NCBI RefSeq assembly: GCF_002234375.1
Contig: NZ_NMQV01000002.1
Location: 1 to 64,000, forward strand
Direction of reading: 5' to 3'
DNA: 64,000 nt
Source: Pseudomonas fluvialis
GTDB taxonomy: Bacteria > Pseudomonadota > Gammaproteobacteria > Pseudomonadales > Pseudomonadaceae
This document shows positions 54,808 to 57,872 of this stretch, piece by piece. Made by a program: the position numbers and the translations under genes. Positions within the stretch are counted from its first letter, which is position 1; every line of letters begins with the position of its first letter. Below the pieces are notes generated by a model, which was not told where the DNA came from, ran no database searches, and worked only from the letters and a program-made list of their open reading frames with translations.

Positions 54808-55068
54808 TCAGGGCTGCTCGCCTTGCAGACGCGCCTCCAGTTCGGCCACGCGCTGCTCCAGGCTTTCCAGGCGGGCACGGGTGCGCTGCAGAACCACCAT
54901 CTGGCTGTCGAACTCGTCGCGGCTGACCAGATCCAGCTTACTCAGGCCGCTTTGCAGGAGCATTTTCAGTTGGGCTTCCAGTTCCGCGCGGGGCAGCGGG
55001 CTGTCGGCACTGAACAGGCGCGACGCCTGGCTGGCGAGAAGGTCGATGACGGCTTTGGGCGGCAGCAT
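54808..55068 (-). CDS. ubiK: UbiK family ubiquinone biosynthesis accessory factor
   Basis: 86-residue protein of the former BMFP family. N-terminal amphipathic helix (LLASQASRLFSADSPLPRAELEAQ) and a C-terminal coiled coil (ARLESLEQRVAELEARLQ). UbiK assists UbiJ in the aerobic ubiquinone complex. ATG 55068 is used; the open frame upstream has no homology. Confidence 0.88.
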   Translation of the reverse strand: MLPPKAVIDLLASQASRLFSADSPLPRAELEAQLKMLLQSGLSKLDLVSRDEFDSQMVVLQRTRARLESLEQRVAELEARLQGEQP

Positions 55069-55169
55069 GATCGGGTTCCACAGAAAAGTGGCAGGAGTGT
55101 AGCACGCGGCCTGCCTGGGCTGATGCGTTGCACGTGGCGCACGTTTTTGCAGCCAGCCGCTGGCGCTGC

Positions 55170-55184
55170 GCACCATTCTGGTGC
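55170..55184. promoter_or_regulatory. NtrC binding site
   Basis: GCACC-ATTCT-GGTGC is an exact match to the NtrC half-sites (GCACC-N5-GGTGC). It lies about 140 bp upstream of the sigma-54-like promoter, a normal enhancer distance. Confidence 0.75.
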
Positions 55185-55311
55185 TGCGCCCCTTTGAGGG
55201 CTGCGAGGTATCTCTTTTGGGTGCATATAACTAATTGATTTATATTGTTTTTTAATAACTGGCAAGGAAACTGCAAATGTTCTGGCGACGACTGCAGATA
55301 TGCAGATCGGC

Positions 55312-55327
55312 TGGCTCGGTGGTCGCT
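55312..55327 (+). promoter_or_regulatory. Sigma-54-type promoter of glnK-amt
   Basis: TGGCTCG-N4-TCGCT keeps the essential GG and GC separated by 10 bases and differs from the consensus TGGCACG-N4-TTGCW at two positions. It would start transcription about 110 bp upstream of glnK. Confidence 0.5.
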
Positions 55328-55433
55328 TGGCGACCCTCTACAGCAGGGCGGTTGCCCGGCTGGAGCGTTACAAAGCCAGGCACTGCGCTTAGACTTGTGC
55401 TGGGTTCGTTTTCCTGGGGCAAGTCCACCTTAA

Positions 55434-55787
<354 letters not shown>

Positions 55788-55827
55788 GCAACACCCAACG
55801 AACCCCCAACGCCCCAGGAGAAACACC

Positions 55828-56010
55828 ATGACTCTGCGTCTCTGCGCAGGGCTGGACGCCCTTTTGCCTCTAATCAGCAGCGACCCGTCGGTCGCACAGG
55901 CGTCCCTGGTTTCTGTAGTCGGTGCCCGGCAGCACCGGCAGCAGCCCTGGGATGCGCTGGTCGTGGTTGTGCCTGCCTCCTGGCAGCACGGCCACAACCC
56001 CAGTCGCTGA
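55828..56010 (+). pseudogene. 60-codon ORF resembling the AmtB leader, probable remnant
   Basis: AGGAG lies 8 bases upstream of its ATG. The first residues, MTLRLCAGLDALLPL, closely resemble the signal-peptide start I remember for pseudomonad AmtB (MTLRK.AGLGALLSL). The rest (from about residue 17) is not AmtB and reads like out-of-frame or eroded sequence, ending at TGA 56010. It lies exactly where amtB usually begins after glnK. It is most simply the stub of a lost amtB, but a short translated leader of the next gene cannot be excluded. Confidence 0.5.
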
Positions 56011-56077
56011 GTCGTTCGCCGTTATGGCGAAACCCGGCACGAATGACGCCTGCGTGCGTCCCGGTATGAGGTGAAAC

Positions 56078-57328
56078 ATGGAAAACACAGCCCTGATTCC
56101 AGTTCTATACGGCCTGGATACCTTCTACTTCCTGATTTGCGGCGCGCTGGTCATGTGGATGGCCGCCGGCTTTGCCATGCTCGAGTCGGGCCTGGTGCGC
56201 AGCAAGAACACCACGGAAATCCTTACCAAGAACGTGGCGCTGTATGCCATCGCCAGCGTCATGTACATGCTGGTTGGCTACCACATCATGTATTCCAGCC
56301 CGGAAGGTGGCATCCTGCCCAGCCTGGGCCTGTTGCTCGGTGACGAGCATGCCGTAGATGTCGTGGCGGCGGGTGGCGAGGATGCTCCCTATTACTCCGC
56401 GCGTGCCGACTTCTTCTTCCAGGTAGTGTTTGCCGCGACCTGTATGTCGATCGTTTCCGGTGCCGTGGCCGAGCGCATGAAGCTGTGGGCCTTCCTGGCC
56501 TTCGCGGTGGTGATGACCGGTTTCATCTACCCGATTCAGGGCTTCTGGAAGTGGGGTTCGGGCTTCCTCAACGAAGCCGGCTTCCTTGACTTCGCCGGTT
56601 CTGGTGTTGTGCACATGGCGGGTGCGGCTGCCGCTCTGGCGGGTGTCCTGCTGCTCGGTGCGCGTAAGGGCAAGTACGGCCCGAACGGCCAGATCAATGC
56701 TATTCCGGGGGCCAACCTGCCGCTGGCTACGCTGGGCATGTTCATCCTGTGGATGGGCTGGTTCGGTTTCAACGGTGGTTCGCAGCTGAAGATCAGCACC
56801 ATCGAGGATGCCAACGCAGTGGCCAACGTGTTCGTCAACACCAACATGTCTGCCGCCGGCGGCCTGATTGCTGCGCTGATTGTCGCGCGCATCCTGTTCG
56901 GCAAGGCTGACCTGACCATGGCCCTCAACGGTGCACTGGCTGGCCTGGTGGCCATCACGGCCGAGCCGCTGACGCCCAGTGCGCTGATGGCTAGCCTGAT
57001 TGGTGGTGTAGGTGGTGTGCTGGTGGTGTTCTCCATCCTGGCGTTGGATAAGTTGAAGATCGACGATCCGGTCGGTGCCATCTCGGTGCACGGTGTAGTC
57101 GGCATTTGGGGCCTGCTGGCGGTCTGCCTGACCAACAGTGATGCCTCGCTGGGCGCTCAGCTGCTGGGTATCGGGGCAATCTTTGCCTGGGTCTTCGTGG
57201 CCAGCCTGGTGGTCTGGAGCCTGATCAAGCTGCTGATTGGCCTGCGGGTCAGCGAGGAAGAAGAATACGAAGGCGTGGATATCGCCGAATGTGGCATGGA
57301 AGCCTACCCGGAGTTCACTCGCAAGTAA
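56078..57328 (+). CDS. amt: Ammonium transporter (Amt family, no signal peptide)
   Basis: 416 residues with about 11 helices. Amt marks include AAGFAMLESGLVRSKN, the twin pore histidines in GVVHMAGAA (near residue 180) and AISVHGVVGIWG (near 340). Unlike usual pseudomonad AmtB it lacks a cleavable signal peptide and begins directly with a membrane helix (MENTALIPVLYGLDTFYF), as in another Amt clade. GAGGTG precedes the ATG. Whether GlnK regulates this version is open. Confidence 0.9.
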   Translation: MENTALIPVLYGLDTFYFLICGALVMWMAAGFAMLESGLVRSKNTTEILTKNVALYAIASVMYMLVGYHIMYSSPEGGILPSLGLLLGDEHAVDVVAAGGEDAPYYSARADFFFQVVFAATCMSIVSGAVAERMKLWAFLAFAVVMTGFIYPIQGFWKWGSGFLNEAGFLDFAGSGVVHMAGAAAALAGVLLLGARKGKYGPNGQINAIPGANLPLATLGMFILWMGWFGFNGGSQLKISTIEDANAVANVFVNTNMSAAGGLIAALIVARILFGKADLTMALNGALAGLVAITAEPLTPSALMASLIGGVGGVLVVFSILALDKLKIDDPVGAISVHGVVGIWGLLAVCLTNSDASLGAQLLGIGAIFAWVFVASLVVWSLIKLLIGLRVSEEEEYEGVDIAECGMEAYPEFTRK

Positions 57329-57345
57329 GCGGCCAGTGGCTTGGC

Positions 57346-57376
57346 AAGGGGCGCCTAAAGGCGCCCTTTGTTTTTT
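57346..57376 (+). terminator. Intrinsic terminator of glnK-amt
   Basis: GGGCGCCT pairs with AGGCGCCC across two bases (57349-57366) and a T-rich tract follows (57367-57376). Confidence 0.88.
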
Positions 57377-57539
57377 CCGGCGCCGCGCTAGAATGCGCGC
57401 CATCGAGCAGTCGCCCGTTGTCGGGCGACCTCATCGACAGCGCTTGGGAGCACCACTGAACGCCAGAGCCGGCAGGCCGGCGGCGGGTTTTTCCGGCTCT
57501 GCTATAACTAAGCTGCTTTGGCAAGCCATGAGGTAGAAC

Positions 57540-57872
57540 ATGAGCGACGATGATCTGGAACGCGACGAGCTGGAAGCCGGCGACGAAGACGAGGCGGAGG
57601 AGCTTGACGCCGCTGATGACGAGGTTGTCGAAGAAGAGGACGAAGATGGCCTGGTAGCAGCGCCAGCTGGCAAGCCTGCGAAGAAGGCCAAGGCGGCTGC
57701 CGTCGAGGAAGAGCTGCCGAGTATCGAGGCCAAGCAGAAGGAACGTGATGCTCTGGCACGGGCCATGGAAGAGTTCCTGGCGCGCGGCGGCAAGGTACAG
57801 CAGGTGGATGACAACGTGGTGGCCGATCCGCCCAAGAAACCGGACAGCAAGTACGGCAGTCGCCCGATCTGA
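57540..57872 (+). CDS. sutA: SutA, RNA-polymerase-associated slow-growth factor
   Basis: 110 residues: a long acidic N terminus (DDLERDELEAGDEDEAEEL), then a basic segment (GKPAKKAKAAA), a short central helix (EAKQKERDALARAMEEFLA) and a disordered tail. In P. aeruginosa SutA binds RNA polymerase and raises rRNA and other transcription during slow growth. A TATAAC box lies at about 57503-57508, and AGGT precedes the ATG. An intrinsic terminator follows. Confidence 0.85.
   Translation: MSDDDLERDELEAGDEDEAEELDAADDEVVEEEDEDGLVAAPAGKPAKKAKAAAVEEELPSIEAKQKERDALARAMEEFLARGGKVQQVDDNVVADPPKKPDSKYGSRPI

Follow-up and report, generated by a model that had tools for sequence, protein, structure and literature searches.

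The spacer between glnK and the downstream ammonium transporter gene of Pseudomonas fluvialis carries a conserved element, at positions 55809 to 55875 of the window (the whole 64,000-nucleotide stretch of DNA analysed here). With moderate confidence, we regard it as an RNA element that belongs to the glnK-amt message and acts in cis. It overlaps the start of a lost gene, amtB1, and would have been selected independently of the AmtB1 protein. This leader is more than the remnant of a protein: its nucleotides are conserved both at synonymous sites and after loss of the gene. The locus has the following features.

55449 to 55787, plus strand: glnK (NF007946, 195.7 bits against a cut-off of 181), the sole PII gene found in the genome
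55809 to 55875, plus strand: conserved element, i.e., the ribosome site and first codons of the lost amtB1 (72.5 bits, E 1.4e-15 with model R1, built from 60 sequences, the window's own leader among them)
55816 to 55820, plus strand: Shine-Dalgarno sequence AGGAG, within the invariant CCCAGGAG (no variation among the 60 distinct sequences of alignment A1)
55828 to 56010, plus strand: 60-codon ORF, codons 1 to 13 being the amtB1 leader and the remainder unalignable (alignment versus shuffles)
55832 to 55838, plus strand: 5' arm of stem A, CUCUGCG (invariant in A1; pairing predicted in the window)
55845 to 55851, plus strand: 3' arm of stem A, CGCAGGG (invariant in A1; pairing predicted in the window)
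55849 to 55852, plus strand: 5' arm of stem B, GGGC, of which GGG is common to the extended stem A (invariant in A1; stem B probability in the window about 0)
55858 to 55861, plus strand: 3' arm of stem B, GCCC (invariant in A1; stem B probability in the window about 0)
55867 to 56077, plus strand: eroded rest of the amtB1 place (first 150 nt against intact amtB1, no better than shuffles)
56078 to 57328, plus strand: amtB2, encoding a marine-subtype ammonium transporter (TIGR03644), assigned by model score (689 bits against a cut-off of 514)

The small ORF starts with ATG, has AGGAG 7 nt upstream and ends 67 nt before the Amt ORF. Its encoded start, MTLRLCAGLDALLPL, agrees with the MTLRxxAGLGALLS start of the intact amtB1 found behind glnK in relatives, which confirms the initial annotation of a 60-codon ORF with a good ribosome site and an AmtB-like signal-peptide start. 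The same annotation had this ORF end in unrelated sequence, and so it does: past codon 13, 42 of 100 shuffles score as high against intact amtB1 as the window itself. The ORF has no match in Pfam or NCBIfam; when its 60 amino acids are used as a protein query, 58 of 99 genomes give a match at E up to 1, the best one outside its own genome at 2.6e-4. By eye, the window tail "LISSDPSVAQAS" resembles the end of a Stutzerimonas signal peptide; the part past codon 13 cannot be aligned to amtB1. At the nucleotide level, the next-best match of model R1 in the window genome has an E value of 1.65, no match to any of 4227 Rfam families was found at E up to 1 over 55000-57600, and a search for plasmid relatives of the spacer returned none.

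One PII gene and two Amt genes were found in the window genome (3.29 Mb in 69 contigs). The second Amt gene is of a different sequence type and is located on another contig (G000:C56:32640-33770, L002); the search for PII genes detected none next to it. Behind amtB2 lies an acidic short ORF (57540-57872), which we take to resemble SutA.

Relatives have a full amtB1 of 437 to 455 codons, with the MTLRxxAGLGALLS start, behind glnK, and many of them have amtB2 next. The window Amt is up to 90% identical to the amtB2 of relatives in which amtB1 is still present between the two other genes, and at E up to 1e-100 amtB2 is found in 60 of 398 same-genus genomes (its own counted), with best identities of 88 to 91%. 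The initial annotation was correct that an amtB once occupied this place and disappeared except for its leader; it was also right that the remaining Amt belongs to another clade than AmtB1 and, by inspection, has no signal peptide. It erred in having a foreign Amt replace AmtB, because the ancestral operon was glnK-amtB1-amtB2 and the window Amt is its amtB2. In the Amt clade to which the window protein belongs, glnK is directly upstream at 50 or more of 80 named loci and amtB1 lies between at 10, counts that are lower bounds given 20 unclassified loci, some of them due to a contig end, a missed pattern or the choice of orientation. By this count, the window Amt is itself a usual glnK neighbor, and replacement by a foreign gene is rejected on its amtB2 ancestry and on this adjacency in other bacteria. 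Against the AmtB equivalog model NF007947, the window Amt scores 179.7 bits, under the cut-off of 657; an intact AmtB1 (L024), whose best matches are solved AmtB entries, scores 477.6 bits, also under it.

The first line of evidence for selection on the nucleotides comes from intact amtB1 genes, of which 77 distinct ones were analysed (2 of 79 having been removed as identical duplicates). In codons 2 to 13, these genes depart from their own codon usage by 2.56 bits per codon, against 0.55 bits per codon in the best amtB1 window starting past codon 25 and 0.76 and 0.94 bits per codon at the starts of glnK and amtB2, respectively, both over their own gene means. Codon use in this stretch is nearly single and often falls on a rare codon. 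Thus, Thr2 is ACT, Ala7 is GCA (10.7% of the gene's Ala codons) and Gly8 is GGG (5.8% of Gly) in 77 of 77 genes; Gly10 is GGA (2.3% of Gly) in 70 genes and GGC in the other 7; CTA (2.7% of Leu) is used in 57 of 77; and Leu13, where present, is always TTG (66 of 66 genes; 6.8% of Leu). Among codons with an invariant amino acid, the third base is invariant in 5 of 9 within codons 2 to 13 versus 4 of 208 elsewhere, and the looser third bases fall in loops (codons 4, 5, 9 and 10) or behind stem B (codon 12). The conserved codons spell two overlapping inverted repeats, CUCUGCG:CGCAGGG and GGGC:GCCC, behind the CCCAGGAG block, which is itself invariant across the 60 distinct aligned sequences. The complementary arms of both stems are present in 77 of 77 genes, which are related to each other, versus 0.8% of random synonymous versions. 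Together with the relic and Atopomonas data below, these results show selection on the nucleotides of the element independent of what they encode. Synonymous conservation is also raised (1.7 to 3.0 bits) at codons 4 to 6 of amtB2 (window 56078-56120), perhaps a start-region effect of its own.

The second line of evidence is the fate of the leader where amtB1 is gone. Fourteen of the 60 amtB2-bearing genomes, the window's among them, carry glnK, the leader and amtB2 without amtB1. A named record of P. composti (L083) provides the fifteenth relic locus, and two further relics (G419 and G628) come from a second genus of the family, g23, for a total of 17; g23 is Stutzerimonas-like, because its leaders equal those of named Stutzerimonas records. 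Preservation of the ORF in many strains, which the initial annotation had set against a lost amtB, was found for the first 13 codons and not for the frame behind them. As reference for retention, we used the 31 nucleotides that are invariant within the first 48 nt of 115 intact loci (at least one genome counted twice). The window keeps 29 of these, the other fourteen same-genus relics keep 29 or 30, and G419 and G628 keep all 31. Departures within the element are confined to two loop positions, the third departing position (43) being behind it. Beside the leader, alignment fails in the window and in the one main-clade relic tested and is marginal in G159, where 1 of 100 shuffles scores as high. 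In G419 and G628, this sequence can still be aligned clearly, so that leader survival in these two genomes says less.

These data bear on the simplest alternative, that the leader is a plain pseudogene remnant, i.e., whatever the deletion of amtB1 happened to leave, now without function. The gene is indeed gone, and the main relic clade, G159 and G628 keep the leader together with an NERG-type tail, as internal deletions would. In 14 of the 15 same-genus spacers, all but the window's, the last amtB1 codons and the amtB1-amtB2 spacer are kept at 79 to 85% identity to intact loci, a pattern as after internal deletion. Yet 29 to 31 of the 31 nucleotides persist in 17 relics, next to a flank that can no longer be aligned in the window or the tested main-clade member. 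Within the 13-genome relic clade, 3 of 36 leader columns are variable, whereas in the eroded middle 53 of 142 are (Fisher p 5e-4, on columns that share one tree), and the mean pairwise difference is 0.016 in the leader versus 0.115 in the next 100 nt. The neutral baseline for the relic leader is uncertain, the whole remaining spacer (0.075) and the fourfold sites of glnK (0.079) being far below the fourfold sites of amtB2 (0.27). Nor is the leader the sole slow part of the spacer, since the end next to amtB2, with 21 of 112 variable columns, is fairly well conserved too. A remnant would, moreover, leave the synonymous constraint of the intact genes unexplained, and we consider this explanation unlikely. 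A CTTTTG run after stem B is present in 57 of 74 loci with amtB2 in view versus 15 of 41 others, but as many loci are cut before amtB2, we attach no meaning to this difference.

The relics do not appear to stem from one event. On the amtB2 tree, thirteen of them group together, G159 falls with intact genomes (support 0.96), the window stands apart, and G419 and G628, which may share one loss, are found among intact g23 genomes. A single loss of amtB1 is hard to fit to this arrangement and at least four losses are apparently separate, as judged from a one-gene tree of 97 sequences with several weak nodes. The tree also places two intact genomes, G008 (L060) and G134 (L067), within the main relic clade, on weakly supported nodes; tree error or an amtB1 regained by exchange may account for this. 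Between amtB1 and amtB2, intact loci have a G+C-rich inverted repeat (such as GCGCCCGGAGCCAACCCGGGCGC), part of which survives in relics; in a further group of loci, the inverted repeat at this place is followed by a T run and is terminator-like.

The strongest single case for the element is Atopomonas hussainii (L085; the same spacer is found in G664 and L289). Here, CTG has replaced the ATG of the leader and TAA stands as its ninth codon, but both pairs of complementary stem arms are retained in ACTCTGCG-CATGT-CGCAGGGCTAAGCCCC (32 bits, E 3e-6), with loops of 5 instead of 6 and 3 instead of 5 nucleotides. The predicted fold has stem A and lacks stem B. With the start codon gone and a stop at codon nine, selection on an AmtB leader peptide or its codons cannot act at this locus. 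This weighs against a translated short leader peptide, MTLRxxAGLGALL, being what is selected, as an attenuator peptide or a micro-protein. Such a peptide would account for the start codon and ribosome site kept in 17 of 17 relics from the window's genus and g23, and several relics do have frames of 71 to 76 codons that end in an AmtB-like tail. On the other hand, the target of selection is the synonymous bases, 5 of the 13 main-clade frames are shifted or stopped early (62 to 64 codons versus 72), and four relic ORFs have no Pfam match. A conserved micro-protein is rejected by these frame breaks and by Atopomonas, and the peptide explanation as a whole seems very improbable.

Searches with model R1 place the element in Pseudomonas and its close relatives. 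All 36 same-genus genomes searched have a single strong match each, and 54 of 56 g23 genomes have one as well, the two misses being 71 to 73% complete. Of 194 genomes drawn from the order, 8 have a strong match, all eight in the window's family, and ten more match merely at E 0.01 to 0.1; at eleven weak-match loci of the order search (L240-L250), no glnK or Amt was detected with three sequence patterns. The element can also be lost, as seen in two other genera: it is eroded at two g104 loci (23.4 and 21.7 bits), and no match to the model at E up to 5 was found at three loci of g100, where glnK and amtB2 are some 45 nt apart. These losses are what a functionless remnant would also lead one to expect.

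We infer that the element works as a folded RNA in cis, with putative stems A and B. The stems never vary in the 60 distinct sequences of A1 and thus provide no covariation support for pairing. Folding energy fails as evidence of structure: it is ordinary relative to shuffles (z 0.21, -0.69, -1.49 and -0.03), and random synonymous versions reach the observed mean or lower in 24% of cases. Extended stem A and stem B compete for the GGG; in a typical sequence, the form with a short stem A plus stem B is predicted at -11.5 kcal/mol and the form with the extended stem A at -10.8 kcal/mol, so that the two are no more than 0.7 kcal/mol apart. In predictions made on 60 nt, the number of the 77 intact genes with a pairing probability above 0.5 is 50 for GGAG:CUCU (codons 2 and 3), 51 for stem A, 16 for extended stem A and 61 for stem B. 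In the five relics that were folded, extended stem A is dominant; stem B reaches a probability of 0.79 in G159 but is put at 0.00 for the window and at 0.07, 0.12 and 0.13 for the remaining three. Thr2 is always ACT, though ACC would strengthen stem A, which fits pairing of this codon with the ribosome site.

Invariance of the sequence rather than of pairing would suit protein-DNA contacts, the folding energy is ordinary, and the arms are inverted repeats, as in operators. The element could accordingly be an operator or part of a promoter, acting at the DNA level for a regulator of the downstream transporter. This we judge quite unlikely, as the ribosome site lies inside the invariant block, no sigma-70 pattern was found in 55200-56200, and Atopomonas changes both arm spacings while keeping the arms, an alteration of loop length by which an operator of fixed spacing would be disturbed.

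The inverted repeats begin no more than 5 bases from the start codon, inside the ribosome landing site, and the ribosome site itself can pair with the CUCU of codons 2 and 3. Under the RNA interpretation, such an element would most likely set or switch the translation or decay of the glnK-amt message, and with it the GlnK:transporter ratio, probably with participation of an RNA-binding protein such as Hfq. Because the element outlives amtB1, it would presumably go on serving glnK or amtB2 in the relic strains. A switch in which ribosome-site pairing, stem A and stem B exclude one another, and which reports the nitrogen state to the glnK-amt message and is selected for the sake of glnK, can be suggested only tentatively; this would explain how it survived the gene that encodes it. 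The element might instead act in trans, as part of a small RNA released from the 3' region of glnK. In relics, it does form the 3' flank of glnK; small RNAs from the 3' untranslated regions of nitrogen genes exist elsewhere, according to the available part of one report (PMC9731577), and Hfq binds at the amtB 5' untranslated region (PMC11332353, in the part available; see below). However, no intrinsic terminator pattern (a G+C-rich stem with a T run) was found in 55200-56200 (0 matches), and a trans-acting RNA strikes us as distinctly improbable.

GlnK and AmtB are the textbook nitrogen-sensing pair, whose control has been described at the levels of transcription and of protein contact. If the cis-acting RNA reading is true, a message-level element at the glnK-amt join would add a third layer of control, and synonymous sites at the start of a gene could outlast the protein that it encodes. 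Relic strains carry the signal free of AmtB coding constraint, which makes the element directly testable. In the literature, we found no title or abstract start that deals with a conserved RNA element where amtB begins in pseudomonads; subscription papers are thinly covered by this search, and novelty is unproven.

Among known systems, control by CsrA/RsmA typically involves a GGA in a hairpin loop and another GGA at the ribosome site. The element resembles this arrangement in its AGGAG at the ribosome site, in the GGA of codon 10 in 70 of 77 intact genes and in the GGA in the loop of the window's stem B; it differs in that codon 10 is GGC in 7 of 77 intact genes and GAA in 2 of 15 same-genus relics.

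The closest characterized operon is that of P. stutzeri A1501, in which amtB1 and amtB2 are cotranscribed with glnK and dependence on NtrC has been inferred (PMC8443478, from the portion of the text available). Its gene order, glnK-amtB1-amtB2, is that of the window's relatives, whereas the window has lost amtB1; an RNA element is not mentioned in the portion of that account examined. In the same strain, Hfq has a crosslinking peak at the amtB 5' untranslated region, and amtB and glnK go up about twofold in the absence of hfq (PMC11332353, likewise seen in part). The exact site and structure are not given in that part of the paper, but the Hfq-bound region is at the same place as the element, and this peak is the sole experimental hint of the element that we have found.
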